From positions 1 through 64,000 of the forward strand of contig NZ_BBJT01000003.1 of NCBI RefSeq assembly GCF_000739915.1: a stretch of DNA of 64,000 bases, read 5' to 3'. Under the pieces are notes generated by a model, which did not search any database, was not told the DNA's origin, and worked only from the letters and a program-made list of their open reading frames with translations. The stretch's first letter is position 1. Each line of letters begins with the position of its first letter. The translations under genes were made by a program, and so were the position numbers. Below are positions 18,313 through 63,830 of the stretch, in pieces. The stretch is from Paenibacillus chitinolyticus NBRC 15660. GTDB taxonomy: Bacteria; Bacillota; Bacilli; Paenibacillales; NBRC-103111.

Positions 18313-18409
18313 ATAGTCTCTCCTTTACTGTTATATGAAATTGATATTTTATTGCTTCATTGGCTTTGTATAATTGAGTATTAGCGAGCATTAAGCAGTA
18401 CTAGCGAGT

Positions 18410-21400
18410 TCATTTTTTGATTTTACAACTCACTAGCCATTCATCGAATTGGTCTGCTGATTTTACCCACTTTCCATCAACCAACTTGCTTTTTGGCCTC
18501 ATTTCAGTTTGCGATAGGTGTAAAAGGTCGCCAATTTTAAAATTATCATTACCGTTGCTGTAGAACTTCTTTTTATCTACTTTAATTTGTTTTTCAATAC
18601 CCCTCATAAGATCGTATATTGTTAATCTTGGAGTATATTTCTTATCCATATCTACAATACAATACCAGTCTATTGCATTTGGATATCTAATACCTGCATA
18701 TCCCATTAACTCTTTTTCATAAAGAACAGTTTCGTGGATTGGATATCTTTTTTCCTTAAGACTACTTCTTATCTCCGCCTCTCTTTTCTTTTTCATATTT
18801 AATCTTTTTAGTTTAGTTATATCTTTCAAAGTTTTCTTGTAAGCGTCTTTCCCTCCGACAAACTCATCATATATACTAATGAGTTCTTTGTTTTCACCAA
18901 ATTCCTTGAAAAAATTGAGTCGTATTAATATTTGTAATTGCCTTGAGTCGCACGTTGTATTCTCAAGGATATCTACCAGTAGATCACAAAAAGATTCATA
19001 TGTATTATCTCTTAATTCATAAAGTTCCTTGGCTATTTGTTCATTGAGATACTTGATTGACTTAATGCCTTTATAAATTGCATTTTCTTCTTTTGCCATC
19101 ATATATTCGCTTACAGATTTTCTAAACATAATTGGTTTAATACTTACTCCTATGCTATTTGCATATTCAGCAATTTTACCCACCTTGTCTAGATTCTCTG
19201 CAATATTCAGCATTACAGTTAGAAATTCTAAAGAATAGTAATGTCTTAAATAGCCGTTTCCATATCCAATATGACTATATGGGTTAGAGTGATTATCTGA
19301 AAACCCGTAATACTGAGCATCCAATATTACCTGTAAGAAAGGCTCAATGATTGCTTTTGAATGTTCTTCATCTTCAGAAAATTTTTCTCTCATGTTACTG
19401 ACGAACCGATCTCGAATTAATGGGATGTACTGTTCAGTTCCTTCCTTTTTCGAAAGTCCTCGACGTACAGTATCGCTTTCAGCCATAGAGTAACCACAAA
19501 AATCAACCAAGAAGTTCATGATTTGCTCTTGGCTAATTAGATAGCCATGAGTATTATTTAATGAGTTGTTGAGTTCTTTGTGTCCATGATCTTTAAAGAT
19601 ACCGGCAGCTAGACTTTCTCTATAGGACGATCCAGAAGGACGAATTGCACCGTTACCGATTGAGAAGAGCTCAATTAAACTGATTTCAGGATTAACTTCT
19701 CTAATCTTCTTTATTGTCTCTTGTTTGAACAGTTCTTTGTAATAACGGTGTGCCGATTCGCTCTCCCACTGAAATATGCCTAACCCCGAATCTTTCATGG
19801 ATTCCCATACTACCTCGTCATTCACATTCATATTGTCAGGAACCAAACGTTCAATACCTGCAAGCCTACAAGTCTCATTAATAATCTCAATGTTGTCTAA
19901 GCCGAGTATATCCAGCTTCACAAAATTGCAGCTATCCAGCTCTTTCATGTTTACTTGGCTCACAGGATACTTGCTTTCTTTTGTATAGCATAGACCAATT
20001 GAATCATCTAAGTTCACTGGTGAAACTACATATCCCGAAGGGTGGGAGCCCACACTTATGATTACTCCACTTACCAAATCTACATATTTAAATAGTTCAG
20101 GATATTTTTTTCTGTAGCTATCAGGTATACAATCTTTCTTTTCTTCATCTTTAAAGACGGCTTTTGCAGTTTCGTCAACCAATGAAGCGTCTAACTGAAG
20201 TGCGCGGCCAACCTCTCTAATTGCCCCCTTTAAAGCAACGGTGTTGAATGTGATAATTTCAGAAAAGTGAATGTTTGGAATGCTTGCTACATAATCAATA
20301 ACTTCTTGTCTTCGCGAAGGTGGAAAATCGATATCTATATCTGCAAGACTTATTCGTTCAGGATTCAAAAACCGGAAAAAATTTAATTTATGCTTTATGC
20401 TATCCATTTCGGTAATTCTCAATAAATAAGCAATTAAGCTTCCATTAACTGAGCCTCGACCATATCCTGGATAAATCTCTTTGGTATAACAGTAGTCGAT
20501 AATATTTTTCTGCAAAAGCATGTAGTCAATCGTTCCCAATTTCTTATATGTATCAAACTCTTCCCTAACTCTCTCGTAGTATCTCTTTTTCTGTTCGGAA
20601 GGCAGTTTATTAGTGCCTCTCGCGACAATCCCTTCGTTTATTTTCTCTTTAAAGACTTTTTCAGAGTCTTCGTATAGCTTTGGATATTTCGGGCTAGAGT
20701 CAAGGGTAAACTCTTCAACCATATCTGCCATTACGTTTGTGTTATGAATAGCTTCTAAATAAGCATGACGAGGAATAGCAGACTGTTCTTCAAATTTATC
20801 AACCAGTTCTTCATAACTTTTAAAAGTTAAATCAAATAAATCCTCATCGCCGTATGTTGCTCCCTTAGCTTTCATCATTATCTTTCTGGCTGCTGCATGA
20901 TCTTGGTTCAATGAGTGTGTATCAGTTCCAGCAATGAGAGGTATACCGGTTGATTTTGAAAAATCAAAAAGCCATTGATTGAATTTTATTTGTTCTGGAT
21001 GTAAGTGGTATTGAATTTCTAAAAAAACCCTATGTTTGTTTCTTGTTAAAAACTCTAAGAGTTTATTAAGCATCGCTGCGTTGTTCTTTTGTAAAGCTCT
21101 CCATAGTGGGGACGCTAGGCAGGCAGTTGTCATAATTATATTGTCTGATGTATTGATCACTTCATCTAATGACAGTCTAGGGTTAAAGTAATAATGACCA
21201 TCTTTACGATTGTTAGATAACGTTGTTAGTTTATTTAATTCTTTCACTCCATACTCATTCTTTGCAATAAGCATGTAGTGCATATTGTCTCGGATTAAAC
21301 CTTTTTCTCTATCTATGTATTCGGTGACGTAAATCTCATTGGCATGTATGTATTTCATACCGTATTTTTCGACAGTCTGTTTTTTCTTGATCCAATTCAT

Positions 21401-21559
21401 AATCGATCCGTGTTCTGAAAAGCAGAAAGAATTCATTTCTAATTCGTTTGCCACTTTTAAATACTGTTCAAACTTAGTTGTAGAATCCATTGACATACTC
21501 GTTGTCGGATTACTTAGATCGCTGTGGCAATGGTAGACCGTATAATTATCTCTCAGCAA
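18410..21559 (-). CDS. dnaE: Phage DNA polymerase III alpha subunit (DnaE/SPbeta YorL type)
   Basis: About 1,049 residues. The N-terminal PHP domain starts NYTVYHCHSDLSN and includes FCFSEHGS. The polymerase core has the catalytic Asp pair in ADIDIDFPPSRR near residue 400 and a third Asp in KLDILGLD. RYGRGSVNGSL-type and SHPSGYVV-type palm and finger motifs are present. It should copy the phage genome. I prefer the TTG at 21559 behind AAGGAGG to the ATG at 21577, which lies inside that ribosome binding site. A decayed copy of its 3' end lies just downstream. Confidence 0.93.
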   Translation of the reverse strand: MLRDNYTVYHCHSDLSNPTTSMSMDSTTKFEQYLKVANELEMNSFCFSEHGSIMNWIKKKQTVEKYGMKYIHANEIYVTEYIDREKGLIRDNMHYMLIAKNEYGVKELNKLTTLSNNRKDGHYYFNPRLSLDEVINTSDNIIMTTACLASPLWRALQKNNAAMLNKLLEFLTRNKHRVFLEIQYHLHPEQIKFNQWLFDFSKSTGIPLIAGTDTHSLNQDHAAARKIMMKAKGATYGDEDLFDLTFKSYEELVDKFEEQSAIPRHAYLEAIHNTNVMADMVEEFTLDSSPKYPKLYEDSEKVFKEKINEGIVARGTNKLPSEQKKRYYERVREEFDTYKKLGTIDYMLLQKNIIDYCYTKEIYPGYGRGSVNGSLIAYLLRITEMDSIKHKLNFFRFLNPERISLADIDIDFPPSRRQEVIDYVASIPNIHFSEIITFNTVALKGAIREVGRALQLDASLVDETAKAVFKDEEKKDCIPDSYRKKYPELFKYVDLVSGVIISVGSHPSGYVVSPVNLDDSIGLCYTKESKYPVSQVNMKELDSCNFVKLDILGLDNIEIINETCRLAGIERLVPDNMNVNDEVVWESMKDSGLGIFQWESESAHRYYKELFKQETIKKIREVNPEISLIELFSIGNGAIRPSGSSYRESLAAGIFKDHGHKELNNSLNNTHGYLISQEQIMNFLVDFCGYSMAESDTVRRGLSKKEGTEQYIPLIRDRFVSNMREKFSEDEEHSKAIIEPFLQVILDAQYYGFSDNHSNPYSHIGYGNGYLRHYYSLEFLTVMLNIAENLDKVGKIAEYANSIGVSIKPIMFRKSVSEYMMAKEENAIYKGIKSIKYLNEQIAKELYELRDNTYESFCDLLVDILENTTCDSRQLQILIRLNFFKEFGENKELISIYDEFVGGKDAYKKTLKDITKLKRLNMKKKREAEIRSSLKEKRYPIHETVLYEKELMGYAGIRYPNAIDWYCIVDMDKKYTPRLTIYDLMRGIEKQIKVDKKKFYSNGNDNFKIGDLLHLSQTEMRPKSKLVDGKWVKSADQFDEWLVSCKIKK

Positions 21560-21695
21560 TATCGCCTCCTTAATCATATATTATCACATTCTTTTATTTT
21601 ATTCAACTGAATTTCATTTGTCTGTTTCTCTAATTTAACCTTTACATTATTACCAATATATAGTACATTCAATACGGTTCAATAATCATCTCAAA

Positions 21696-21722
21696 AGCCC
21701 TGTGAAATGTACTCACAGGGCT
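21696..21722 (-). terminator. Terminator upstream of the polymerase gene
   Basis: Perfect 10-bp stem AGCCCTGTGA / TCACAGGGCT with a T4 run on the minus strand. It closes the leftward cREC-macro-UvrX operon. The 130 bases between it and the polymerase start hold no gene and probably the polymerase promoter. Confidence 0.85.
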
Positions 21723-21734
21723 CCCCTATTTCCT

Positions 21735-21752
21735 ATAAAAACATAGTTTTAT
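21735..21752. repeat. Palindrome copy 1
   Basis: Perfect. Contains the stop codon of the 54-residue gene at 21749 and precedes a terminator. Confidence 0.8.
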
Positions 21753-22271: not shown

Positions 22272-22285
22272 ATTTCCACCCCAAA

Positions 22286-22732: not shown

Positions 22733-22733
22733 G

Positions 22734-24720: not shown

Positions 24721-24746
24721 TCTTAAAGAGTAATAAAACATGAATT

Positions 24747-24965
24747 TTATAGTCCAATTATATTTGCCGAATGCTTGTCTGTGCTCAACACTTTAACCAA
24801 ACCGCTGTCTCTCATCTCGTCCAAAACAGTCTCTGTAAACTTATACTTCATTTCATTTATTAGATAAATTTGGTTAAATAACGGTTTAATTACTCGCGGC
24901 TCTCTACCGCAGTAACATCTACTTATGAAGGCTGCAGAGGCTGGTGAAATTTTATACTCACTCAT
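24747..24965 (-). CDS. 72-residue phage protein downstream of thyA
   Basis: MSEYKISPASAAFISRCYCG..., start one base after the thyA stop and so coupled to it. It has no known family. The pattern EMKYKFTETVLDEMRDSGLV could be a winged-helix recognition region, but this is weak. Confidence 0.6.
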   Translation of the reverse strand: MSEYKISPASAAFISRCYCGREPRVIKPLFNQIYLINEMKYKFTETVLDEMRDSGLVKVLSTDKHSANIIGL

Positions 24966-30574: not shown

Positions 30575-30592
30575 ATAAAATAACAGTTTTAT
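30575..30592. repeat. Palindrome copy 2
   Basis: Perfect. Between the 79-residue gene and nrdI; an operator here could control the whole nrd-thy block. Confidence 0.8.
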
Positions 30593-32940: not shown

Positions 32941-33022
32941 CGGAAGTGTTAGCCATGTTGCAAGGATGCGAATTCATTCATCCGAGCATATGGCCCCTCT
33001 TTCTTTCCATAAAAGATTGATT

Positions 33023-33295
33023 TTATTGGTCCGTATCAAAGACTCTTCTTCTTCCTCGGTCATAATTGTCTAGCGGGTCTGAAATAAATCTACCGTTCTT
33101 GTCGCGCACTTTTACTAAATAGTCCATCCAATTTTTTGGCATTAACTCGGTTCGCCAATTTGTATCATCGACCTCTTCGAGCAATTCAACAAATTTAATC
33201 TGCCATTCCATAGGCATAGATTGGAGAACAGTACGAGGCAAAACTAGATAGTTTGCATAGGACAGCCCAAAATAACTATGAATATCTTGGTTCAT
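33023..33295 (-). CDS. 90-residue phage protein
   Basis: MNQDIHSYFGLSYANYLVLPRTVLQSMP...; a pattern I know from other Bacillus phage hypothetical proteins but with no assigned function. The gene overlaps the upstream one by four bases (ATGA). It may be structural-fold helical. Confidence 0.7.
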   Translation of the reverse strand: MNQDIHSYFGLSYANYLVLPRTVLQSMPMEWQIKFVELLEEVDDTNWRTELMPKNWMDYLVKVRDKNGRFISDPLDNYDRGRRRVFDTDQ

Positions 33296-33975: not shown

Positions 33976-34002
33976 ACTCACTCCTCCTATGAAATTAAAC
34001 TT

Positions 34003-34347
34003 TTATTCATTAATTCTCAGATTTAATCTATTTCTTTGAGAATTGTCCAACCCAAACCGAATCGCTTCTTCAAGGCTTCCTGTTACTTCCGCACTTCCCC
34101 ACGCCTGACAGTCCCAACCTGTATAGTCGCAGCCTGCATCAATAATCGCGTACCTGCCATCTTTAAGTTTGAAAATACCAATCCAATTAGACGTATCGTT
34201 CTCTCCGTCATCCATTGCGATAATTTCAACAACATCTTCCCTACTAAATGGCCTCGTAGATACTGGTTTTGCAAAGTGAACAGTAAATACTGAATTAGCG
34301 TAGCCGAATGCTTCCTTCCAATCATATGTATTGATTTCTTCTAACAT
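34003..34347 (-). CDS. 114-residue conserved-looking phage protein
   Basis: Begins MLEEINTYDWKEAFGYA and has GRYAIIDAGCDYTGWDCQAWG, a motif seen in many hypothetical proteins of phages and bacteria. No function is known. Its TAA stop lies in an imperfect ATAAAA-type repeat. Confidence 0.7.
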   Translation of the reverse strand: MLEEINTYDWKEAFGYANSVFTVHFAKPVSTRPFSREDVVEIIAMDDGENDTSNWIGIFKLKDGRYAIIDAGCDYTGWDCQAWGSAEVTGSLEEAIRFGLDNSQRNRLNLRINE

Positions 34348-34360: not shown

Positions 34361-34378
34361 ATAAAATGAACTTTTTAT
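34361..34378. repeat. Palindrome copy 3
   Basis: Perfect. Between the genes at 34378 and 34003. Confidence 0.8.
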
Positions 34379-35978: not shown

Positions 35979-36010
35979 TTGGGCACCTCATGAAATGTAA
36001 TTTTTATCGT

Positions 36011-36430: not shown

Positions 36431-36459
36431 CGTTTCGCTCTCCTTATGAAATCCGTATT

Positions 36460-36564
36460 TTATTCTCCCTTAAATAAGTCGATTGCCTCTTCTTTGATTT
36501 CCTCAACACTCTTTTGTAAACCTCTTTCTTCTGCTGCACCAAGAACCTCATTTAATGACTTCAT
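36460..36564 (-). CDS. 34-residue phage peptide
   Basis: MKSLNEVLGAAEERGLQKSV..., a single charged helix. No ribosome binding site is visible, but its TAA stop falls inside an ATAAAA-type repeat, as with many real genes here, which supports it. Confidence 0.4.
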   Translation of the reverse strand: MKSLNEVLGAAEERGLQKSVEEIKEEAIDLFKGE

Positions 36565-36948: not shown

Positions 36949-37011
36949 GTATAGGTCGACAGTAATTGCAGTTTGTACAAACGAGCACTTCATTATCTGG
37001 AGGTCAGTATT

Positions 37012-37821
37012 TTGAAAAAGCTTGCTTTGTCTTTAACAATTTGCAGTGTTGTTCTTAGTTCTATTGTACCTGTTGCCGCAGCTAGTTCAATTTCCGAAAC
37101 TACACTAAATGATTATCTTTCAAAGGCGCGCTACCCTAAGAATGTAATTAATATCTTAGACAAAGAGCAGAAGGAGACTATTTACAATAATAAGGCGGAA
37201 TTCGCTTTTGTTAAAAGTGGTTCTGAACTATTAACTGATGGTCAAGAAAAGTCTTTGATTACACCGCAAGAATTAGCCAATTTTTCTGCACAATTAGTTG
37301 GCAGCCAAATATCATCTCCTAGTGGTTATGCAAAAATTATTCTAGATTTTAACTTCGATTGGAACTACATGCCTGTCTTTACTTCAAAAGATAAATTCGG
37401 AATAGCCTGGTCTGATGATTTCACTGCGTTACCAGAAACCGCAAAGTATAATTACAAGGCTGTTAATAACGCATCAGGTTTGTATGCGGAACTGGGTAAC
37501 ACTTCCGACTACAGCGATTATAATATTAAAAAAGGCATTGGGTGGGAAATCAACCTAACTGCAGGCTTTACAAGAAACGGCACTTTTTATCCTGTCGGCA
37601 GGCACAAGGGATGGGGTCAGGTAATTATTCAACGTCCCAAAGATAAGCCTGGAACCCCAATGACAACCGCAGCAGTTGGAAACTATTTCCACAAAGAAAT
37701 CGCAGGTAATGGATCGCTCTCTTTCGGTCTTTTTGATGGCAAGCCTCAAATTTCGATCAGTCCATCAATCAGCTTTGATAAGTCTAATGATTATGCCGAT
37801 GTTGTAAACTGGACTCAATAA
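37012..37821 (+). CDS. Secreted phage-encoded protein (lysogenic-conversion candidate)
   Basis: A 269-residue protein. The start is the TTG at 37012, eight bases after GGAGG. The signal peptide MKKLALSLTICSVVLSS runs to an AAA-SS cleavage site near residue 25. The mature part is beta-rich with many Trp/Tyr/Gly and has no recognised catalytic motif. It has its own rightward promoter and no phage-cluster repeat, so it is probably expressed from the resident prophage and changes the host surface or surroundings. Confidence 0.75.
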   Translation: MKKLALSLTICSVVLSSIVPVAAASSISETTLNDYLSKARYPKNVINILDKEQKETIYNNKAEFAFVKSGSELLTDGQEKSLITPQELANFSAQLVGSQISSPSGYAKIILDFNFDWNYMPVFTSKDKFGIAWSDDFTALPETAKYNYKAVNNASGLYAELGNTSDYSDYNIKKGIGWEINLTAGFTRNGTFYPVGRHKGWGQVIIQRPKDKPGTPMTTAAVGNYFHKEIAGNGSLSFGLFDGKPQISISPSISFDKSNDYADVVNWTQ

Positions 37822-38480: not shown

Positions 38481-38498
38481 ATAAAACCTACATTTTAT
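38481..38498. repeat. Palindrome copy 4
   Basis: Perfect. Before the membrane-anchored gene at 38097-38447. Confidence 0.8.
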
Positions 38499-40012: not shown

Positions 40013-40426
40013 TCACTTTGTTGTATGGACTACTTCCTCAATATCTGGATGGTTGAAGAAGAAAAAGTATGGAGAAAAACTCTTGTCTTGACTTACAGTC
40101 CATTGAAAGCCCTTAGTAGAAACCGAAACATAATCCCATGCAATGAGTGATTTTGGACTGACGATCCGCCTGCCGATAATAATCCACTCCTGCTGTTCAT
40201 CGTTATCTGGAGCGACCTTCACAACACTTCCGATATTAAGTAAGCACTCTTCCATTTGATCCTCCGTTTTGTTATTTATTTTTTCGTGTTTATATTTACT
40301 GTTTGGATGTTCTAATTGCCATTGAGCGTAATATATCTCATCTTCTATTCGCTCTTGTTCAGATAAATAATTCATCAAATCGCTGACTCTCTCAAATTTA
40401 ATCCTGTATCCATACGATAAAATCAA
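40013..40426 (-). CDS. Phage protein with DUF4176-like barrel
   Basis: Up to 137 residues. The segment LLNIGSVVKVAPDNDEQQEW followed by IIIGRRI and AWDYVSV matches the look of DUF4176 (small beta-barrel proteins of unknown role). The annotated TTG start lies inside a perfect ATAAAA-N6-TTTTAT repeat without a ribosome binding site, so the true start may be further in, for instance at the Met near residue 18. Confidence 0.5.
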   Translation of the reverse strand: MILSYGYRIKFERVSDLMNYLSEQERIEDEIYYAQWQLEHPNSKYKHEKINNKTEDQMEECLLNIGSVVKVAPDNDEQQEWIIIGRRIVSPKSLIAWDYVSVSTKGFQWTVSQDKSFSPYFFFFNHPDIEEVVHTTK

Positions 40427-40434
40427 TATTTTAT
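40417..40434. repeat. Palindrome copy 5
   Basis: Perfect. Overlaps the annotated TTG start of the gene at 40013, which argues that the real start is further in. Confidence 0.75.
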
Positions 40435-43681: not shown

Positions 43682-43699
43682 ATAAAATAGTTATTTTAT
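43682..43699. repeat. Palindrome copy 6
   Basis: Perfect. Between the LexA-box gene and the zinc-knuckle gene that leads to the helicase and primase. Confidence 0.8.
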
Positions 43700-45505: not shown

Positions 45506-45523
45506 ATAAAATTCCTATTTTAT
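45506..45523. repeat. Palindrome copy 7
   Basis: Perfect. Contains the TAA stop of the Rha gene and precedes the AUA-start gene. Confidence 0.8.
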
Positions 45524-46392: not shown

Positions 46393-46420
46393 AATACCAT
46401 TCTCCTTTATATGAATAAAA

Positions 46421-46600
46421 TTACATTTTCATCTGTTCTACTTTGGTAGCAATCATTCTTGTTCCGCTTGCTAAGATATGAAAAATTTCCTCTAAATCCT
46501 CAATTGAATCATTAAATCCTTCTGCTTCTAATTGCACCTTGTCGTTCTGGTCAATATATAGAACAATTTTGTTAATGCTTTCACTCTCCCTTTCTCCCAT
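46421..46600 (-). CDS. Small acidic phage protein, start uncertain
   Basis: Up to 59 residues: ...NKIVLYIDQNDKVQLEAEGF and a helical end. The ATG at 46600 lies inside a perfect intergenic repeat with no ribosome binding site, while an in-frame ATT at 46576 follows AAAGGGAG by nine bases and gives a natural start. This may be a third non-standard start codon in this phage. Confidence 0.5.
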   Translation of the reverse strand: MGERESESINKIVLYIDQNDKVQLEAEGFNDSIEDLEEIFHILASGTRMIATKVEQMKM

Positions 46601-46616
46601 AAAATCACAATTTTAT
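46599..46616. repeat. Palindrome copy 8
   Basis: Perfect. The ATG at 46600 falls inside it, which favours the later ATT start of that gene. Confidence 0.8.
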
Positions 46617-47431: not shown

Positions 47432-47602
47432 CTCACTTACAGAATAAAATTCTCATTGTATTTGTCAATGCTTAAAATTTTTATACCTTCTTAAATTACG
47501 TCCATAATTTATTAAGACTCAGTGCTTGATTACTCATTTTCTCGCTGATTATCATTTGAGAAAAAATTTTTGAGATGGTGTAAGGTATCTTATATAGGAC
47601 GG

Positions 47603-47838: not shown

Positions 47839-48513
47839 ATGTCAATTATTAAACGCGGTTTTATCTATGCTCTATCTGATATACATTTTCACACTCTAAG
47901 TAACTTTTCTTCCGATATTGAGCATTCAATAAAAACATCTAGTGCTGAATATATTGCTCATCTTGAAGCAATTTCTGAGAACTATAAAGATGATAACTTG
48001 GAAATGTTTTGGGAATATAACATAGACCAAGTTAATGATTTGCGCTATGAGTACCCTACATTACTACGTTCATCTGTCTTGATTTCTTGCTATTCTAATC
48101 TCGAAAAAACAATGGTAAATTTTCACGAGGATTTAAAGCTTAAAACAGGACTAAGTTTAAATTACAACAATAGAAGATTTTCAAGAAGAAGCACCATAGA
48201 AAAAGTCCTAGAAAGCTTGCAAGAATCAATACCTTTACCAAATTCCTCGGGGTCAATAGAGTGGACAAATATTCTCTTTTACAAAAGCCTTAGGAATAAG
48301 GTCGTTCATGATTTAGGTAAAATTAACAAAAGAAAGGATAGAGCGTTATTGAACCAAATTGAACAATCATCTTTTGTTTCTGTAAACGAAATTAATACTA
48401 TAACTTTCAATGAGCATTTTTCTGAAAAAGTAATTACAGATTGTAGGAACTTCATCGACTTGTTGTATACTGATATAAAACTATATACAGACAGTTTAAG
48501 ACCATCCTCCTAG
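47839..48513 (+). CDS. HEPN-like domain protein (candidate RNase, defence or lysogenic-conversion cassette)
   Basis: A 224-residue helical protein. SLRNKVVHDLG near residue 155 contains R-N-x3-H, the HEPN ribonuclease motif, preceded by the usual long helices (SVLISCYSNLEKTMVNFHEDL). AAAGGATGG precedes the start. It is the first gene of a rightward pair inside a leftward phage cluster, the arrangement of morons that protect the lysogen. HEPN proteins often cut RNA in abortive-infection or toxin systems. Assignment rests on motif and helix pattern only. Confidence 0.6.
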   Translation: MSIIKRGFIYALSDIHFHTLSNFSSDIEHSIKTSSAEYIAHLEAISENYKDDNLEMFWEYNIDQVNDLRYEYPTLLRSSVLISCYSNLEKTMVNFHEDLKLKTGLSLNYNNRRFSRRSTIEKVLESLQESIPLPNSSGSIEWTNILFYKSLRNKVVHDLGKINKRKDRALLNQIEQSSFVSVNEINTITFNEHFSEKVITDCRNFIDLLYTDIKLYTDSLRPSS

Positions 48514-48527
48514 TGAGGATTTTTTTA
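48504..48527 (+). terminator. Terminator overlapping the end of the HEPN-like gene
   Basis: ATCCTC / GAGGAT stem with a five-base loop and a T7 run; the stop codon lies in the loop. Confidence 0.75.
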
Positions 48528-48530
48528 TCG

Positions 48531-48548
48531 ATAAAATCCAAGTTTTAT
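48531..48548. repeat. Palindrome copy 9
   Basis: Perfect. The only copy between rightward genes: 16 bases upstream of the -35 box of the zinc-finger gene. Confidence 0.8.
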
Positions 48549-48564
48549 AATGATTCATCCGCTC

Positions 48565-48593
48565 TTGTTACTGTCTTCGTGTAAGGTTATAAT
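48565..48593 (+). promoter_or_regulatory. Sigma-A promoter of the zinc-finger gene
   Basis: TTGTTA, 17 bases, TATAAT. A perfect ATAAAA-N6-TTTTAT copy lies 16 bases upstream of the -35 box. Confidence 0.8.
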
Positions 48594-48635
48594 AGGAAAA
48601 TATGGTTGAAAACAGATGGTACAGAGGTGGCACAA

Positions 48636-49778
48636 TTGTTCGAAATGAATGATATCGATAGTCGGTTAAGACATTTAAATCACGATCAAATAAATAAACT
48701 TATTAGCCGGTATTATGACGGAGAAAAAATTGAAACTCTATTGAAGGAATATCAAATATCTGCTCGTGCGAGTGAGTTGTACAAAATGTTTCCGGCTACT
48801 ATTGAAAATATAAAATGTTTTTATTGCAATGTGCATCTTGTAACAATGATGCCCTCCCGCACCTCAAACGCAAAAAATTACGCTTTTTGCCCTCACTGTG
48901 ATCATAAAGAAACTCCGCTTTGTAGATGCACCAATTGTAAGAAGCTTGAGCAAGAAAAGATTCTTTCCGAAAATCAATATAAGAAAATAAAGATTGCAGA
49001 AACATACGATATTGCAAATTATAAATCCAACCAGATTAATGATTTAAATTTGCGCGATGTTTTATATCTGGCCTGTCTTCTTCGCAGTAGGCTTGATGAA
49101 AATTTCTCAATTATACAACCATTAGAAAATTATATAGAAAGCATAACTCCAACAAGCGATAAAACCAAAGAATTAGTTCTCTCGTTAGCTAATAAAAAGA
49201 TAATTGTACCTCATTCTTCATCACCGATTAATTCATTCAAGGAAGATGAAGATTTTCCAAACACCTATTATATTTACCGTGTAAATTACCAAGTTAACGT
49301 CGAAGAAGAATTAAGCGTTCTTCTAAATCCTGATTCTACTATTTTTTTAAATGACCCACATTTTGTTTATAAAATGTGGAGAGAAATAGCTTTAGAAGAA
49401 ACTAAGCAGTATCTTCTATATAGTATGAAAAAAGTTAAGTTTGATTTCTCTATCGGTGATAAAACAATCTCTGTATTTAACGATCTATTAGACCACTTCT
49501 CAACTTCTCAAATTCACGCGTTAATATACAGAGGGGTCTCTAACGCAACAAGATATTACCAGGAAGGACAAGTTCCAAAGCAACAAGCAGCAAACTCTGT
49601 AATAACAAATTGTCAACGTTTAGGCGAAAAGGCAATTGCGGAAAATTGGGATGTCAAAGGGTTTAATAGAAATTATGATTTGCCACAGTCAGTTTTGAGC
49701 GAATTATTTTTCAACAGAATTCTTAAGATTGGAAGTCGCGGATTTGATGAGGTTCCAGACATATTAATTGATAGTTAG
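48636..49778 (+). CDS. Zinc-finger protein of the rightward cassette
   Basis: About 380 residues; TTG start at 48636, behind AGAGGTGG. An N-terminal HTH-like part (LISRYYDGEKIETLLKEYQI) is followed by zinc fingers with CFYC, CPHC and CRCTNCK pairs near residues 60-110. The rest is helical and unlike any family I know. Independent promoter and terminator. With the HEPN-like gene it may form a regulated effector pair. Confidence 0.65.
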   Translation: MFEMNDIDSRLRHLNHDQINKLISRYYDGEKIETLLKEYQISARASELYKMFPATIENIKCFYCNVHLVTMMPSRTSNAKNYAFCPHCDHKETPLCRCTNCKKLEQEKILSENQYKKIKIAETYDIANYKSNQINDLNLRDVLYLACLLRSRLDENFSIIQPLENYIESITPTSDKTKELVLSLANKKIIVPHSSSPINSFKEDEDFPNTYYIYRVNYQVNVEEELSVLLNPDSTIFLNDPHFVYKMWREIALEETKQYLLYSMKKVKFDFSIGDKTISVFNDLLDHFSTSQIHALIYRGVSNATRYYQEGQVPKQQAANSVITNCQRLGEKAIAENWDVKGFNRNYDLPQSVLSELFFNRILKIGSRGFDEVPDILIDS

Positions 49779-49821: not shown

Positions 49822-49839
49822 ATAAAATACAGGTTTTAT
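49822..49839. repeat. Palindrome copy 10
   Basis: Perfect. Contains the TAA stop of the leftward gene at 49836, abutting the terminator of the zinc-finger gene. Confidence 0.8.
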
Positions 49840-50981: not shown

Positions 50982-50999
50982 ATAAAAATGAATTTTTAT
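50982..50999. repeat. Palindrome copy 11
   Basis: Perfect. Between the methyltransferase stop and the gene at 50630-50968. Confidence 0.8.
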
Positions 51000-51959: not shown

Positions 51960-51977
51960 ATAAAAGCCTTCTTTTAT
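51960..51977. repeat. Palindrome copy 12
   Basis: Perfect. Between the gene at 51990 and the small membrane-protein gene that precedes the methyltransferase. Confidence 0.8.
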
Positions 51978-52367: not shown

Positions 52368-53531
52368 TTAATCGATCCAGCTCATGTATTCTTCTCGCGG
52401 TACTTCTCTTACTACAAAACACTTCTTTGCATGAACCTTAGCATCATCCTTATGGTCAAAGTGTTCGTAAGGAATGATCACTTCAATAAGCGCTCCTTGA
52501 TACCGATAGTTTGACTCGTTAATTTCCTTCTGTTCATTAAAATACAGATAGTCGTTTTTAGGTATTGCAAATTCGCCGATTTTATAAATGAAATTAGAGT
52601 CGTAGTGACTGCTGTAATTCCCATCTTTATTGTACTTTACAAACTTATAAAACCTTTTATTTTCTATGTATGTTTTTCCATCAAACTCGGTATACTTTTT
52701 AGGTATATCACTGATAAACTTAAGCGTCCCTTTTCTCGTTAGGCGATAATCGCGCTCATTAATATACGTTATCTGTACCGGCTCTTTTGAAATCTCTTTA
52801 ATAATGTCCTCTACACATTCAAATTTAACTTCCTCTGGCTTTTTAAAATAATCCTCGTGTAACGATAAATCGGCTATTTTATCAATCACATTATCCAGAC
52901 TAAACTCTTCGCCTTCCTCAAACTGAATCAGTTTGTCATAGTTGATTCCATACATTCCTCCGAGTTGCTCCTTCAGCTCATCGACGGATTTAATTTGTAG
53001 ATCCATACATTTGAGTGCAATCCGAATAAATTCCGGTTTTGAAATTGTGTATCCCTTTTCAGTGTACTTATGGACTCGAAGTAATGAAACTATTGGAAAA
53101 GCGGTATCTTTGTTGAATCTGAGCATTCTTTGAGCATTATCTTTCAGGAAATGTTTATGTAGCACAAACTCTTCAGTCTTAAAATCGAAAGCTCCCATAC
53201 ACGATGTGAAGTCAAAAGTATCAAAAATATCCTTGGCTTCTGGGAAGTACTTAAAGTGAATCAACTGTACATTCTTATCTCTGCCCATTCTAACCATAAT
53301 TGATTTGTTAGTGAGAATGTTAACCCAATCGCTACCTTCCCAGGCTTCCTCAACGAACTCAATAAGCGAGGCTTCATGTCGGAAATACACATCAATATCA
53401 TTAACTTTCCTGTTGCTGAACAGGCTTGTGATTGCTCCACCGGCTACGTAAACCTCGTGTCTTTTAAAAGCATTTACTACATGTTTACCAAGATAGTCAT
53501 ACAGTTTATTTTTCTCAAAAGTATACTTCAT
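52368..53531 (-). CDS. Nucleotidyltransferase-fold phage protein (long)
   Basis: A 387-residue protein. VYVAGGAITSLFSNRKVNDIDVYF is a polymerase-beta-like catalytic strand, related in pattern to the 217-residue protein at 44378. The C-terminal half is unknown. It could act as a tRNA or protein nucleotidyltransferase. GGAGGAAT precedes the start. Confidence 0.75.
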   Translation of the reverse strand: MKYTFEKNKLYDYLGKHVVNAFKRHEVYVAGGAITSLFSNRKVNDIDVYFRHEASLIEFVEEAWEGSDWVNILTNKSIMVRMGRDKNVQLIHFKYFPEAKDIFDTFDFTSCMGAFDFKTEEFVLHKHFLKDNAQRMLRFNKDTAFPIVSLLRVHKYTEKGYTISKPEFIRIALKCMDLQIKSVDELKEQLGGMYGINYDKLIQFEEGEEFSLDNVIDKIADLSLHEDYFKKPEEVKFECVEDIIKEISKEPVQITYINERDYRLTRKGTLKFISDIPKKYTEFDGKTYIENKRFYKFVKYNKDGNYSSHYDSNFIYKIGEFAIPKNDYLYFNEQKEINESNYRYQGALIEVIIPYEHFDHKDDAKVHAKKCFVVREVPREEYMSWID

Positions 53532-53788: not shown

Positions 53789-53806
53789 ATAAAATCTACC
53801 TTTTAT
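53789..53806. repeat. Palindrome copy 13
   Basis: Perfect. Contains the stop codon of the DUF6440-like lipoprotein gene. Confidence 0.8.
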
Positions 53807-55019: not shown

Positions 55020-55037
55020 ATAAAAATCCGATTTTAT
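55020..55037. repeat. Palindrome copy 14
   Basis: Perfect. Between the gene at 55041 and the interrupted gene at 54641-55006. Confidence 0.8.
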
Positions 55038-55040: not shown

Positions 55041-55337
55041 CTAATAATCAAATCCCTGTTTTATCATTTCTTCCTTGATCTCCTTCAAAGTCTCAATTAC
55101 AACATCTAACGAAGCTATGCGATCAAATAGCATGATTACATGAGCATCATGGTTATCAAGAGATGTACCTACAACTTCCTTCCATTCCTCGCCTATTTCT
55201 CGGGGCTTTGATTGTATAAACGCTGCTCCATATGTTAATTTAGAACCATCATCTTTTAATTCTGCTACGAAAATATCTCCATATCCAAATTGAAGATATT
55301 TTATATTGTTATCTGTTTTAATGGGCAAGAAGCTCAC
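55041..55337 (-). CDS. 98-residue phage protein
   Basis: MSFLPIKTDNNIKYLQFGYG..., AGGAGTG upstream. Beta-rich first half, then a long helix ending. No function known, but the form is common in phages of bacilli. Confidence 0.6.
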   Translation of the reverse strand: MSFLPIKTDNNIKYLQFGYGDIFVAELKDDGSKLTYGAAFIQSKPREIGEEWKEVVGTSLDNHDAHVIMLFDRIASLDVVIETLKEIKEEMIKQGFDY

Positions 55338-56927: not shown

Positions 56928-56945
56928 ATAAAATCAAGTTTTTAT
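56928..56945. repeat. Palindrome copy 15
   Basis: Perfect. Contains the tmk stop codon. Confidence 0.8.
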
Positions 56946-58418: not shown

Positions 58419-58451
58419 AACATTCCCTTCTTAATACTGTAATTTATCTAT

Positions 58452-58500: not shown

Positions 58501-58520
58501 CGACTAATGAAATGTTCGTT

Positions 58521-59747
58521 TTATTGATTTAAGGCATTCACAAAATCTAAAGCTTCTTTAAGTTTTTCTGTATCATCCGATTTTAGAAAATTAACCACTC
58601 CGAGCAGTTCTTTCATTTTAGGCGCCACGATATCACTCTTGACCTCGTTGGCAATATCCTTCAAGGCATTTTTCAGTTCATTATGATAGTCTTCAGCAGT
58701 TTTCTCATCTTCATCTTTCAAACTGTCGATCATGTCTTCGGAAAATCGCTTAGCTTTCTCTTCCAACACTTCAATTTCTTTCTTACGGATATCTTCAAAG
58801 GAATCACCTTCGTCAAGTTGTCCTTCAATTGCCTCTTTAAACACCCTTACATATGTATCAATTCCATACAACTCTTTTTCTGGCAACACTTTAAAGCGTC
58901 CACCGGCGATACCAATATAACTAGATTCTCTAAAGTACATATAAGTTTGTGATTCATGAAACTTCGTAGCAATCTCTTTGCCATTTTTGTTTTCTAGGTT
59001 TTTATTTAATTCATTTCCTTCTTTATCTAAAGCTGTAACTTCATTGTGTAGGCAACAAATTAGATCTGCTTGCGACTGGAATACTTTACGGCAAGTAGTA
59101 TTCATCATTAGCTCGATTGAGTTATATTTCACGCCATTGACGAGTTCTGTTGTTTTTTCTTTTGTCCAAGCTAAAAAAATCAAACCGTAGCCTGCAGCCC
59201 TTAATGTATCAATTGGGCGTTTAAGCTCGTCATATAGATTATTCCATACATTATCTTTATAAATCTTCGATTCTGATAATTCTTGAATTGATGTGAAATT
59301 ATTTCCGGGATACTTGTTATTCGCATTAACGATGATATAAGCAGAAGCGCAATCAATCATTCTGTCAACAGTGTCGAATCCTACCACTTTAGAAATACGA
59401 GAAACCTTTGATTCCTGTACTAGCCCAGTTACTATTTCTTGTTTGAAATAAATCCACCTGTCTGAATCCATCTCAATATCGGTCTTTATTTTTATCTTAC
59501 CATTTTTAATTTTTTCTTCTTCTTTTTTATATTCCACCAAATCGATTTTCGATTTCAGTTTCCACGTTTTATACCCAGGTTCCCAAGCTACAAGCAGTCC
59601 TGCTTCTGGTTCGTTAGGGAAAAAGTATTCAATGATTTCCTTCCACCAACGAGTCTTGCCTGATTTATAATTTCCAGCCGTTAATAAGATATAGGATTGT
59701 AAGTCTACCTTTGGAATATTCGCCGTAACGAGATTTCGAAAAGACAA
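58521..59747 (-). CDS. Sak4-like AAA/RecA-type ATPase
   Basis: A 408-residue protein. Walker A is AGNYKSGKTRWW near residue 25, with VVGFDTVDRM as a probable Walker B and LIFLAWTKEK further on. The fold suits the Sak4/RecA-like phage recombinases that anneal single strands or load helicases. The C-terminal part is a long charged helix. The next gene upstream encodes an SSB-like protein, a known partner of such ATPases. Confidence 0.75.
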   Translation of the reverse strand: MSFRNLVTANIPKVDLQSYILLTAGNYKSGKTRWWKEIIEYFFPNEPEAGLLVAWEPGYKTWKLKSKIDLVEYKKEEEKIKNGKIKIKTDIEMDSDRWIYFKQEIVTGLVQESKVSRISKVVGFDTVDRMIDCASAYIIVNANNKYPGNNFTSIQELSESKIYKDNVWNNLYDELKRPIDTLRAAGYGLIFLAWTKEKTTELVNGVKYNSIELMMNTTCRKVFQSQADLICCLHNEVTALDKEGNELNKNLENKNGKEIATKFHESQTYMYFRESSYIGIAGGRFKVLPEKELYGIDTYVRVFKEAIEGQLDEGDSFEDIRKKEIEVLEEKAKRFSEDMIDSLKDEDEKTAEDYHNELKNALKDIANEVKSDIVAPKMKELLGVVNFLKSDDTEKLKEALDFVNALNQ

Positions 59748-59806
59748 TTAGTTATTCTCCTTTGTTTTTTCTATTTCTAGACTTTAGTTTAATGTTTTAC
59801 TTCTAA

Positions 59807-60949: not shown

Positions 60950-61007
60950 TTAAAAATATCATTCTCCTTTTATATTAATTTCTTTTACTTTATATGTGCA
61001 TTTCACT

Positions 61008-61025
61008 ATAAAATTCTTCTTTTAT
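61008..61025. repeat. Palindrome copy 16
   Basis: Perfect. Between the tRNA and the SSB-like gene. Confidence 0.8.
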
Positions 61026-61063
61026 TGCTGCTCTCTTCTCCTTTCTCAGAGTATCTATATAAT

Positions 61064-61075
61064 CACCATATGGTG
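61064..61075. promoter_or_regulatory. 12-bp palindrome CACCATATGGTG
   Basis: Perfect palindrome ten bases from the tRNA 3' end. It could be a processing or binding site; no role is shown. Confidence 0.3.
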
Positions 61076-61084
61076 TTATTTTAG

Positions 61085-61158
61085 TGGGCCCTGGGGGACT
61101 CGAACCCCCGACCAATCGGTTATGAGCCGACCGCTCTAACCAACTGAGCTAAGGGCCC
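61085..61158 (-). tRNA. tRNA with CAU anticodon, probably tRNA-Ile2 (AUA)
   Basis: A full cloverleaf of 74 bases on the minus strand: 7-bp acceptor GGGCCCT/AGGGCCC, D-arm GCTC-N9-GAGC, anticodon arm GTCGG-CTCATAA-CCGAT, T-arm GGGGG-TTCGAGT-CCCCC, no encoded CCA. The anticodon context GGCTCATAACCG matches lysidine-type tRNA-Ile2 rather than elongator tRNA-Met, so it would read AUA, a codon common in this A+T-rich phage and rare in the G+C-rich host. Confidence 0.93.
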
Positions 61159-61236
61159 TTACAATTCCAATATTATATCCTTTTGTTTTTATTGTCAACA
61201 TTTATTTTTATCTTCTTACCCGGGAGTTAATGAAAC

Positions 61237-61701
61237 TCACATTTTATCCGCTCTTTGAGTTTTAAACCCTTCGTATCTAGGCAAATATAAGCAATGTAAT
61301 ATTGACTCAATTAAATTTAAAGTAAAGACGCCCAGTTTCGCATCTATTTCTATGTCAATTCGATCAACATTGTTTTTAATCCAATCTCCTACTGTTGAAC
61401 TTGAAAGTGAGTAGAACTCCATTGCCGGATCTAAAATAATTGACTTCGCGAGATTACTCTGTGAACTCTCCGGATTATAGTGCTGACTATAAAATCTAGC
61501 CTTGCTATTGCTTCCTGCTTTCCCTATTTTTAAATAATCTCCATTAAAGCTAAAAGTATAAACATACATCTTGCCTTGTTTAAAGGTACATTTATGCGGT
61601 CTTCCTCTGTTTACTATAGCTATCTGTTCATCGGTTGGATATATATTGACCTCGTTCAACATCTTATATAAAAGCTGCTTAACATCTTTGTTCATATCCA
61701 C
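61237..61701 (-). CDS. GIY-YIG-like nuclease-fold protein
   Basis: A 154-residue protein. VYTFSFNGDYLKIGKAGSNSKARF is the GIY-YIG-related pattern of small phage and host proteins (T5orf172-like), followed by a helical end. Catalytic residues other than Tyr, Lys and Arg cannot be confirmed. It may bind or cut DNA. Confidence 0.72.
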   Translation of the reverse strand: MDMNKDVKQLLYKMLNEVNIYPTDEQIAIVNRGRPHKCTFKQGKMYVYTFSFNGDYLKIGKAGSNSKARFYSQHYNPESSQSNLAKSIILDPAMEFYSLSSSTVGDWIKNNVDRIDIEIDAKLGVFTLNLIESILHCLYLPRYEGFKTQRADKM

Positions 61702-61716
61702 GAACGATCACTTCCT

Positions 61717-61734
61717 ATAAAAGATTCGTTTTAT
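61717..61734. repeat. Palindrome copy 17
   Basis: Perfect. Between the 60-residue gene and the GIY-YIG-like gene. Confidence 0.8.
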
Positions 61735-61739
61735 TAGAT

Positions 61740-61922
61740 TTACTCAACCAAATGCCATTTCTGATTTATATATCCATATTTAAATTCATCAGTGGGATAC
61801 CATGACTTTCCATCATCTATAGAATCAACAAGTTGATCCCCTTTCTTTTTAAATAAGATCCCGTAATCATCTCGTACTGTATGACCTATTTCCATCATTC
61901 TGAACGCCTCAAATATGCTCAC
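61740..61922 (-). CDS. 60-residue phage protein
   Basis: MSIFEAFRMMEIGHTVRDDY..., ending INQKWHLVE. The N-terminal FEAFRMMEIGHTVRDD and the C-terminal W-x-L/I-V-E layout loosely recall the Tad2/DUF2829 anti-Thoeris fold, though the match is weak and short. Otherwise unknown. Confidence 0.55.
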   Translation of the reverse strand: MSIFEAFRMMEIGHTVRDDYGILFKKKGDQLVDSIDDGKSWYPTDEFKYGYINQKWHLVE

Positions 61923-61955
61923 TTCTTATCTCCCATTCCTCATAAAAGGCTAATT

Positions 61956-62318
61956 TTAACTAGATATGTTTTTAACACTGAAAGTACTGAAATATTTTAA
62001 TTCCAAACCAACTACTTTCAATTCGTCGGCATATACTTCAGATTTATTACCTTCAACAACAATACTAAATTCTATGTTTGAACCATCGAATTCTAAGCGT
62101 GTGACTTTATATTTTTTCTCAAGTATCTTTCTGATTTTTGGCTTTAATACACACCCTAAACAATGCGTTTCCCCTTTTACGGTTTTCCACCCGCTTTTTT
62201 TTGCCCATTTCAGACAGGATTTCTTATTATAAAATTGTGAAACGCCCCAATCCGTACTTGCCCAACAACCACACGAATCGCAATTCATGTCATATAAAGC
62301 TACTACTTTCATTGTCAC
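61956..62318 (-). CDS. 120-residue zinc-finger phage protein
   Basis: MTMKVVALYDMNCDSCGCWA..., with CDSCGC and HCLGC pairs about 40 residues apart, enough for one zinc site. Function unknown. Confidence 0.62.
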   Translation of the reverse strand: MTMKVVALYDMNCDSCGCWASTDWGVSQFYNKKSCLKWAKKSGWKTVKGETHCLGCVLKPKIRKILEKKYKVTRLEFDGSNIEFSIVVEGNKSEVYADELKVVGLELKYFSTFSVKNISS

Positions 62319-62329
62319 CGCCCTTTCTC

Positions 62330-62347
62330 ATAAAAGACTCATTTTAT
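62330..62347. repeat. Palindrome copy 18
   Basis: Perfect. The TGA stop of the gene at 62339 lies in its gap. Confidence 0.8.
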
Positions 62348-62623
62348 TTGCTCAATAATTGCTTCCATTTCATTAATGTTATGTTCTAAAATACTTTTCA
62401 GTTTATCTAATGATTCATTCTTTGCTTCATTAATATCCTTACTCTTTAGCTCTATTTTATCTAAATCGAGATATCTCGAACTTAGCAGCCACATGTCAGA
62501 ACCATAATGAATATGTCTGTGAACCATAATATCAGCCTTATTAATAACTGCGGTCCAAGATCTAGGCTCTGTGTCCTTTCTTTTTCTTTGACTATAAGAT
62601 GTAGTGTCTTTCCATGTAATCAT
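62339..62623 (-). CDS. 94-residue phage protein
   Basis: MITWKDTTSYSQRKRKDTEP... with GGAGGAG upstream. Lysine-rich, with a C-terminal coiled coil (DKLKSILEHNINEMEAIIEQ). The motif SWTAVINKADIMVHRHIHY is common in hypothetical proteins of phages. Function unknown. Confidence 0.6.
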   Translation of the reverse strand: MITWKDTTSYSQRKRKDTEPRSWTAVINKADIMVHRHIHYGSDMWLLSSRYLDLDKIELKSKDINEAKNESLDKLKSILEHNINEMEAIIEQIK

Positions 62624-62643
62624 ATGTTTCTCCTCCTTATCCG

Positions 62644-62661
62644 ATAAAAGAATTGTTTTAT
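62644..62661. repeat. Palindrome copy 19
   Basis: Perfect. Between the genes at 62697 and 62339. Confidence 0.8.
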
Positions 62662-62696
62662 CGTGTTTCTCCTGTATAAGGTTATTACTGCTCAGC

Positions 62697-63350
62697 TTAA
62701 CATAATTTAGGAGATCTAGTTAGCACAGAGTTTAATTGTTTGTTTTTAGTAATAACGATTGGTAATACACATTCTTCTACTAAATCAACCATAAACCTAT
62801 TTGTTTCTGAATCACTCTCCAAACTTTTATTTGTAATGATAAAATTGTTAAGCTCATCTTCTAATCTCTTTCCCCAATTGATACAATTATGCAAATGCGT
62901 TTTCCCATTGCTACCATATTCATTATTATCAATTGACGTAATCGTTTTATCGTTCCAGTATCCATAAGGTGTGATATATGGGAAAAGCCATCCGTCATTT
63001 TTATTTTTTTCATACCAATTGTTGAGATATTTTAATAAAAGGACAACATCAATCCCTAACTCTTTTTTCGTTATCAATGTTAATCTTTTTAACTTTAAAT
63101 TATCTAAACTAATTTCAAGTACGTTCTCATACTCCCTCATAAAAGAATGGTAGTCTGACTCATACGTAGAAATAAAATCATCAATTTCGAAAATTAATTC
63201 TTCTACCTGTTCTTCGGCATCATCATATGAAAGGCTGTTTATTCTATCAACAATTTCATTTCGATCTTCTTCTTGATCATTTATTATTTTGTCCCAGAAG
63301 GTCATTGAACGTTTATTTACACTTTTCTTCCTCATCTTCACATTTTTCAT
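62697..63350 (-). CDS. 217-residue phage protein
   Basis: MKNVKMRKKSVNKRSMTFWD..., helical and acidic (DDAEEQVEELIFEIDDFIS). The centre reads DGWLFPYITPYGYWND. No family recognised. Confidence 0.55.
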   Translation of the reverse strand: MKNVKMRKKSVNKRSMTFWDKIINDQEEDRNEIVDRINSLSYDDAEEQVEELIFEIDDFISTYESDYHSFMREYENVLEISLDNLKLKRLTLITKKELGIDVVLLLKYLNNWYEKNKNDGWLFPYITPYGYWNDKTITSIDNNEYGSNGKTHLHNCINWGKRLEDELNNFIITNKSLESDSETNRFMVDLVEECVLPIVITKNKQLNSVLTRSPKLC

Positions 63351-63389
63351 TAGCTAATCACTTCCCATAAAAGTATTATTTCATCTAAA

Positions 63390-63803
63390 TTAACTTATAG
63401 AAAGATCTCTAAATAACATTTTAATCAACTCATAATATAATGCGAAAGCAGCCGAAAGAACAGCAAATCCCAATCCCCAAAATAATACTATTGCAACAAA
63501 ATACCAATATGACAACTTCAAGTTCATGCGTTTGGGCGAAGCTACATATACCATTCCACCAATAATCAATAGTGTTATGGTGATCAAAAAAGTAGATAAT
63601 AATAATAGCGCAGCAACGCCCCACAATTCTAATTTCAACAATTTACCAATGGCGAAGTTGGAGTAAAAATAAACTCCAGAGACACCAAAAATGGTAAAGA
63701 TCCCACTAATGATCCCTAGTTTTGTGCTTGCGGGACCATCTTTAAATTCTTTCCAAAGTTCAGTCGCAAAGTTAATCTTTCCTTCACTCACTCTTAGCGC
63801 CAT
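63390..63803 (-). CDS. Phage membrane protein
   Basis: A 137-residue protein with three or four hydrophobic helices (GIISGIFTIFGVSGVYF, WGVAALLLLSTFLITITLLI, YWYFVAIVLFWGLGFAVL). No known family; possibly superinfection-exclusion-like. Confidence 0.65.
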   Translation of the reverse strand: MALRVSEGKINFATELWKEFKDGPASTKLGIISGIFTIFGVSGVYFYSNFAIGKLLKLELWGVAALLLLSTFLITITLLIIGGMVYVASPKRMNLKLSYWYFVAIVLFWGLGFAVLSAAFALYYELIKMLFRDLSIS

Positions 63804-63812
63804 CCATTTCCC

Positions 63813-63830
63813 ATAAAATATTTGTTTTAT
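63813..63830. repeat. Palindrome copy 20
   Basis: Perfect. Contains the stop codon of the partial gene at the window end. Confidence 0.8.

Follow-up and report, generated by a model that had tools for sequence, protein, structure and literature searches.

A stretch of 64,000 nucleotides from Paenibacillus chitinolyticus NBRC 15660 (contig NZ_BBJT01000003.1, positions 1 to 64,000; hereafter the window) covers the left end of an SPbeta-like prophage in which a palindromic motif, ATAAAA-N6-TTTTAT, recurs between genes. What is new here is that homology between related phages often stops at the edge of this motif, and that the motif and its 6-bp gap are usually kept with the retained neighbouring gene. 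We suggest that the motif is a double-stranded DNA site for a phage-encoded dimer, perhaps stoperator-like, that would also act as a joint for gene exchange, and we give this reading a probability of about 0.42. SPbeta has long served as a model prophage, and mosaicism is a feature of its relatives. A shared dyad at borders of gene content makes single-gene swapping by large temperate phages directly testable in Bacillus subtilis 168, and it also points to a further DNA-binding protein of these phages.

A motif with a fixed gap recurs throughout the prophage

Pattern search allowing one mismatch places the motif at 34 positions of the window, of which 22 are perfect and 12 carry a mismatch; the first lies at 18335 and the last at 63813. 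An earlier reading of the sequence without database searches (the sequence-only reading) had recognized this recurrence and slightly undercounted it, at 20 perfect and 10 one-mismatch copies. Shuffles of the whole window give a mean of 1.33 such places and a largest count of 8, and 200 dinucleotide shuffles of the prophage part give a mean of 0.055 perfect copies, at most 1, against the 22 found. Beyond 18 kb, perfect arms are separated by 6 bp in 22 cases, and any other single spacing between 0 and 20 bp is seen once at most. The sequence-only reading was thus right that the gap is fixed and that the copy number lies far above chance; its estimate of about 64% A+T was also correct, as was its statement that the host part (1 to ~18 kb, G+C 46-56%) holds no copy.

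The prophage extends over about 130 kb as judged by G+C (~36% from 18 kb to ~148 kb of C30). Positions 1-164000 of C30 hold 37 perfect and 37 one-mismatch copies. Of the 39 perfect copies in the whole 6.4-Mb genome, 37 lie on C30 (from 21735 to 144273) and two elsewhere; with only two outside the prophage, the site is hardly used by the host. The assignment to SPbeta-like phages reflects a MrpR homologue at C30:68188-69189 (phrog_5830, 4.3e-72; PF22822, PF22823), a homologue of SPbeta YopQ, a DnaE polymerase and a YonO-like polymerase that is 54% identical over 756 residues to the SPBc2 yonO region. The latter (C30:101031-103388; L017:17031-19388:+) also has a Pfam match to the RNA-dependent RNA polymerase family PF05183 (5.5e-17). 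Several proteins of tyrosine-recombinase fold are encoded in the prophage and in related phages. The nearest relative found is a prophage in Paenibacillus sp. HGH0039, whose MrpR is 96% identical; an IMG/VR contig whose MrpR is identical probably represents the same prophage.

Refinement over 453 sites between tandem genes in 14 phages gives the consensus ATRAAA-N6-TTTYAT, with G frequent at base 3 and C at base 16. Conservation in a profile from -70 to +67 is confined to the 18 bp and, weakly, to the bases beside it; weak preferences are seen for T at the start and A at the end of the gap and for a purine preceding the left arm.

The dyad is common to diverse SPbeta-like phages

The sequence-only reading proposed extending the search to the complete prophage and to related phages, and the array proves widespread among SPbeta-like phages. 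Among 13 other MrpR loci of Paenibacillaceae, de novo scanning for dyads finds it in four: the same dyad ranks top in G002, G071 and G039, and in G025 a G/C variant ranks top with the A/T form second. No clear array is seen in the other nine (G001, G004, G026, G055, G064, G066, G075, G090 and G098), which were dropped from later work; several of these are short or of higher G+C, and G064 is AT-rich over 80 kb yet only weakly enriched for the motif. In nine SPbeta-like records scanned whole or nearly so, the motif is the first or second six-base-arm dyad in every case. It ranks top in phi3T, a Staphylococcus SPbeta-like phage, SPBc2, E3, PJN02, BcoS-136 and phi6255; in KKP3916 the top dyad is a G/C variant of the motif, and in Perkons the motif comes second, close to an AT repeat.

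Counts of the consensus, with those of a reversed-pattern control in brackets, are 24 (0) in E3, 3 (0) in Sundance, 12 (0) in KKP3916, 28 (0) in PJN02, 38 (2) in Perkons, 14 (0) in BcoS-136, 16 (2) in phi3T, 26 (0) in phi6255, 10 (0) in the Staphylococcus SPbeta-like phage, 14 (1) in SPBc2, 4 (0) in LC76P1, 3 (1) in pCD1602_4 and 1 (0) in LIBA6276, so that four of this first batch of 13 records hold only 1-4 copies. Further records hold 2 (0) in 949, 2 (2) in phiL47, 1 (0) in PMBT69, 26 (1) in phi116, 6 (1) in 6ec, 4 (0) in VPE25, 18 (0) in MT835469, 30 (1) in FADO, 15 (2) in Goe14, 17 (1) in SPbetaL2, 13 (1) in SPbetaL1 and 15 (0) in BUCT082. These counts refer to incomplete sequences for E3, KKP3916, BcoS-136 and FADO (ends missing), SPbetaL1 and SPbetaL2 (~94 kb each), BUCT082 (60 kb) and MT835469 (100 of 176 kb). 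One dyad is therefore common to phages of Paenibacillus, Bacillus, Geobacillus, Psychrobacillus, Alicyclobacillus, Staphylococcus and Mammaliicoccus. We found no published description of it in the titles, abstract openings and passages that we surveyed (including passages of PMC10516654, PMC8270828, PMC5467207, PMC9892861 and PMC9283540), and an earlier mention is possible.

Base 3 is almost always A in PJN02, BcoS-136, phi6255 and the Staphylococcus phage, and is G in 26 of 35 sites in MT835469; this preference differs by genome, which hints at a phage-encoded reader. MT835469, a gut phage from human faeces (L204-L208), carries the same array mostly as ATGAAA-N6-TTTCAT and gives no MrpR match. 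Other repeated dyads were also seen, namely ACGAA-N6-TTCGT with 6 copies close to the G055 MrpR gene, where 0.12 are expected (L083-L086), and CGTTG-N1-CAACG in PJN02 with 11 copies where 0.04 are expected (L146-L154).

The dyad marks gene borders

Genes were called with a simple in-house script, not a published caller, and small genes are missed. Within the limits of these calls, the site marks gene borders more than gene starts. Sixty of 69 consensus sites in the prophage are centred between called genes, where the intergenic share of the stretch is 17.5%. The upstream stop codon coincides exactly with bases 2-4 of the left arm in 118/453 tandem sites, and in the window the called upstream stop is a TAA or TGA at these bases in 10 of 34 copies. 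These results agree with the sequence-only reading, which had placed the copies between genes, often with a stop codon inside them. A called start follows at 13-30 nt in 221/453 tandem sites and lies more than 60 nt away in 162/453. Since each site can be read on both strands, we also counted strand-wise matches in 13 phages: of the 333 with a stop and/or a start nearby, 175 have both, 100 a stop only and 58 a start only, and 407 have neither. Sixty-six of the 100 stop-only matches (no start within 60 nt) also lack a Shine-Dalgarno-like word. A strong left/right bias of the motif, apparent in the window, is weakened once sites with a stop in the left arm are set apart. Among sites with the stop outside the left arm, G3 (102) and C16 (108) show no orientation bias, and T1 (18) and A18 (54) are biased, frequently in SPBc2.

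The spread of the sites over the genome, with the greatest density in the early region, would also be expected of a binding site for a factor of nucleoid-like, replication or packaging function, with gene borders as no more than tolerated places. We consider this quite improbable, because it leaves both the excess of stop codons in the left arm and the exchange joints described below unexplained.

The placement bears likewise on the proposal of the sequence-only reading that the motif is an operator of a dimeric phage repressor or activator. A double-stranded dyad that is nearly limited to the prophage (37 of 39 perfect copies) is in keeping with that proposal; the absence of a -10 or -35 signal at a fixed place beside the motif in the 453 tandem sites, and the copies at gene ends without a start, are not. 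Nor did that reading anticipate the use of the motif as an exchange joint, described below. The strict form, plain operators of a lysogeny repressor at promoters in the manner of SPBRE, would account for the many copies of a symmetric dyad. It does not account for the missing promoter signal or for the distribution of sites in the 14 phages (453 tandem, 23 convergent, 17 divergent and 75 inside called genes). SPBRE is moreover a different sequence, so the parallel with SPbeta drawn by the sequence-only reading is not supported in the strict sense. Re-derived from ten published MrpR target regions, SPBRE reads CAAATAATATGTATA, with at most two mismatches in nine of the ten and four in the yorM region, and SPbeta (SPBc2) carries both SPBRE and 14 copies of the present consensus. 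We therefore regard plain promoter operators as improbable.

The dyad probably acts as double-stranded DNA rather than as an RNA stem

The sequence-only reading preferred a DNA-binding site to an RNA stem-loop, and the base pairs of the arms point the same way. At bases 3 and 16 the 453 tandem sites have A-T 248 times, A-C 78 times, G-C 69 times and G-T 58 times; the pair-breaking A3-C16 is commoner than G3-T16, contrary to RNA pairing. Within genomes there is no covariation of R3 with Y16 (G-C observed 69, expected 63.9, z 1.31), the pooled association stemming from differences between genomes. The gap is not complementary either, its bases 1 and 6 forming complementary pairs in 132 cases, fewer than the 149.7 expected. 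An RNA hairpin or a signal for mRNA processing ahead of the ribosome binding site would suit the location mostly inside gene runs and the start codons 13-30 nt on, but not these pair counts, nor the 100 strand-wise matches with a stop and no start nearby, and we regard it as very improbable. These patterns support a double-stranded DNA dyad.

Homology between related phages often ends at the motif

When the prophage is compared with its G002 relative, 21 of 74 homology-block ends lie no more than 25 bp from the centre of a motif, where shifted positions give 2.0, and the reverse direction gives 20 of 72 against 1.7. SPBc2 and phi3T give 11/74 (0.9 for the shifted control) and 9/74 (1.0). In several clean insertions or deletions homology stops at the motif edge, and some breakpoints lie away from motifs. 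The association extends to gene neighbourhoods: the neighbour has changed at 186/261 motif junctions against 349/946 junctions without the motif. This test used flanks from coding sequence, intergenic lengths of 20-120 bp and junctions with any homology, setting aside 214 motif and 580 other junctions without detectable homology. The changed fractions with and without the motif are.76/.41 in B. subtilis phages,.53/.20 in PJN02/FADO and.71/.26 in Mammaliicoccus phages. With distance the fraction falls from.71 at motif junctions to.42 at motif-less junctions within 1.5 kb of a motif and.28 farther away. The neighbour-change, gap-following and orthologue-border comparisons were ordered or all-against-all within phage groups, so that their counts are not independent.

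A profile over 61 junctions, one per gap class and phage group and each with at least 60% identity in the 25-bp kept flank beside the motif, has an identity of 0.89 in the kept flank and 0.87-1.0 through the motif, then 0.66, 0.52, 0.49 and ~0.3 beyond. If only the upstream gene is kept, the motif stays in 95/128 comparisons, 85 of them with at least five of six gap bases equal; if only the downstream gene is kept, it stays in 105/139, of which 99 have at least five of six equal (116 junctions of unclear orientation were left out). Motif and gap stay with either kept neighbour, which suggests that the motif is owned neither by the upstream nor by the downstream gene alone, and ownership by one side only is disfavoured in both directions. 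The gap GATGCA, for example, lies upstream of both the SPBc2 gene at 86114 and its Goe14 orthologue, and also downstream of both the SPBc2 gene at 85666 and its SPbetaL2 orthologue, each time with a different far neighbour. At borders of orthologous genes with the motif in both phages the gap is the same in 176 comparisons and different in two, and at those with a changed neighbour on that side it is the same in 98 and different in two. The sequence-only reading had counted the same genes without the motif against its proposal, and such cases do occur as a minority: among borders whose two neighbours are unchanged, 53 comparisons retain the motif with an identical gap and 11 have it in a single phage.

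Exchange thus takes place between borders that share the 18 bp. Frequent exchange between unrelated gaps would leave about half of them mismatched, and is rejected by the 8/200 comparisons with at most two of six bases matching and the 2/178 that differ. One apparent deletion lies between copies with different gaps (TTGAAG and AGACTG in SPBc2, AGACTG in phi3T). Of 27 insertions examined, 26 have the motif at one end only, one has it at neither end and none has it at both; the other end is sometimes a degenerate copy, such as the one with a 5-bp gap in FADO opposite PJN02 115430. At motif borders homology ends 3-9 bp past the far motif edge in 17/29. At motif-less borders with a changed upstream neighbour, 37/94 lose homology near the Shine-Dalgarno sequence, 12-30 bp ahead of the start codon; of the rest, 16 lose it at once, 31 reach the 69-bp limit (and are probably not true switches) and 10 lie between. 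The motif-less joints near the Shine-Dalgarno sequence, together with the motif at one insertion end only, favour plain short-homology recombination.

These same data bear on a dedicated site-specific exchange, in which a phage tyrosine recombinase would read the arms, the 6-bp gap would be the overlap or address and single genes would be the cassettes. Tyrosine recombinases follow an overlap-homology rule by which only sites with the same overlap recombine. The inverted arms around an unconserved 6-bp gap, the sharp joints at the site, the gap identity in nearly all borders with the motif in both phages, the several tyrosine-recombinase-fold proteins of these phages and the apparent SPBc2/phi3T deletion between two copies are all compatible with such a system. 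The gap identity is equally expected from plain homology-driven exchange, however, and the insertions with no motif pair at their ends, the Shine-Dalgarno joints, which indicate that other short shared sequences serve too, and the failure of any candidate recombinase to track the motif (see below) make a dedicated system rather doubtful in our view.

How the site may be read

The same arms at dozens of unrelated borders in diverse phages need a reader, which argues for a DNA-binding dimer as the primary function and for exchange as a second consequence. A phage-encoded dimeric protein would bind the nearly symmetric ATRAAA-N6-TTTYAT dyad; it may be of tyrosine-recombinase fold, which these phages already use for MrpR. 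From placement alone our best guess is a stoperator-like silencing role, in which protein on many sites would limit transcription through early gene runs in the lysogen, as in mycobacteriophages. The same 18 bp at the same border in relatives would offer a ready short homology for single-gene swaps (the joints are seen directly, and the enzymology is our inference), and swaps at the motif would leave reading frames and ribosome binding sites unharmed.

Several results weigh against a bound site that doubles as a joint. Sites at gene ends without a start nearby are a poor fit to an operator. The Paenibacillus pair has no excess of switches at motif junctions (8/15 against 18/31, or.53 against.58), and a first junction test with intergenic length matched gave p 0.08-0.16. 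At borders with a changed neighbour the motif is found in one phage only in 101 comparisons, as against both phages in 100. Motif copies lie near or in five of the ten MrpR target genes (yorE, yosX, yorZ, yopV and yorM), yet the published peaks, as given in passages of PMC10516654, are at SPBRE promoters.

Lastly, none of the three tyrosine-recombinase-fold proteins covered (MrpR, TyrA and TyrB) tracks the array. MrpR is rejected as the binder because SPBRE differs, Sundance has MrpR with 3 copies, and MT835469 has the array without a MrpR match. The YomM-like TyrB is present at ~50% identity in Lactococcus phages with 1-2 copies and has no match in the array-bearing KKP3916. The YopP-like TyrA has strong matches in the Lactococcus phages and in Sundance, which lack the array, whereas in the array-bearing MT835469 it has a weak match only, falling on TyrB, and G025 has no strong match. 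Stretches of 49 kb from Lactococcus phage 949 and from Sundance showed no other strong dyad. A ligase present in most carriers was rejected as a tracking gene, since it is also present in Sundance. Passages of PMC10516654 name yopP among the core genes probably active in lysogeny. For this reason only, the YopP-like TyrA is a reasonable first candidate; MT835469, G025, Sundance and the Lactococcus phages all speak against it as a marker.

We also note that a YomM-type tyrosine recombinase (L018:14759-15742:+) lies just before the tape-measure gene, with one opposite-strand gene between. A YomM-type recombinase of ~50% identity is likewise found just before the tape-measure gene in Lactococcus phages 949, phiL47 and PMBT69, for which we know of no lysogeny. 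A literature search found no paper linking YomM and integrase.

Comparison with known systems

In lambdoid phages, short conserved boundary or linker sequences at module borders serve as recombination joints. The present motif is alike as a joint at module borders, but here a single dyad recurs at dozens of borders in each genome, and its gap varies from one border to the next. Inverted arms around a gap of ~6 bp are known from core sites of tyrosine recombinases (dif) and from the coupling sequences of Tn916. The present motif shares with such core sites the inverted arms, the fixed and unconserved 6-bp gap and the rearrangement joints at the site. No recombinase is linked to it, however: neither MrpR, TyrA nor TyrB is present in all carriers and absent from non-carriers.

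Integron attC arrays have been reported in phages, according to passages of PMC9892861. The likeness lies in recombination joints after single tandem genes; conservation here is largely confined to 18 bp, and two phages that both keep the motif share its gap. That SPbeta-like phages have an integron-like system for exchanging single genes, with a recombinase reading the arms and the gap as the address for the matching border, strikes us as unlikely.

Passages of PMC9283540 describe the stoperators of L5-type mycobacteriophages as 13-bp asymmetric repressor sites whose orientation follows transcription. Our motif resembles them in its many copies in short intergenic gaps of gene runs, and differs as a nearly symmetric 18-bp dyad with a fixed 6-bp gap, known here from sequence alone. 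SPBRE, the MrpR operator of SPbeta, is likewise a repeated intergenic element in the same phage family, lying 15-52 bp before a start codon in seven of the nine well-matched regions, and a MrpR homologue is encoded here. It is nevertheless another sequence of 15 bp (CAAATAATATGTATA), and MrpR ChAP-seq in SPbeta gave ten peaks, at SPBRE-bearing promoters (passages of PMC10516654).

Copies in the window and neighbouring genes

A gene-content break lies at the edge of the perfect copies 33009..33026 (between this prophage and that of G002), 38481..38498, 40417..40434, 50982..50999 and 51960..51977 and of the one-mismatch copy 46415..46432. The perfect copy at 21735..21752 is followed by what looks by eye like a terminator hairpin. 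Other perfect copies found by pattern search are 24733..24750, 30575..30592, 34361..34378, 43682..43699, 45506..45523, 46599..46616, 53789..53806, 55020..55037, 56928..56945, 61008..61025, 61717..61734, 62330..62347, 62644..62661 and 63813..63830, and one-mismatch copies lie at 18335..18352, 33989..34006, 35990..36007, 36446..36463, 58507..58524, 61230..61247, 61942..61959 and 63367..63384. Two further one-mismatch copies, 52865..52882 and 55047..55064, fall inside called genes and may be chance matches.

Two opposite-strand genes (47839-49778, + strand) interrupt the leftward run, with a one-mismatch copy (47444..47461) on one flank, a perfect copy (48531..48548) between the genes and another (49822..49839) on the other flank. 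The first gene has a weak match to a PADLOC HEPN model (E 6.7e-5) and the second has no match in Pfam or PADLOC; the two are possibly an inverted pair of defence modules. A 282-aa protein without a Pfam match, with a signal-like start as judged by eye, is encoded at 36973-37821 on the + strand, opposite to its neighbours. The prophage also carries a tRNA-Met gene (anticodon CAT; 61084-61158, - strand) between two copies of the motif.

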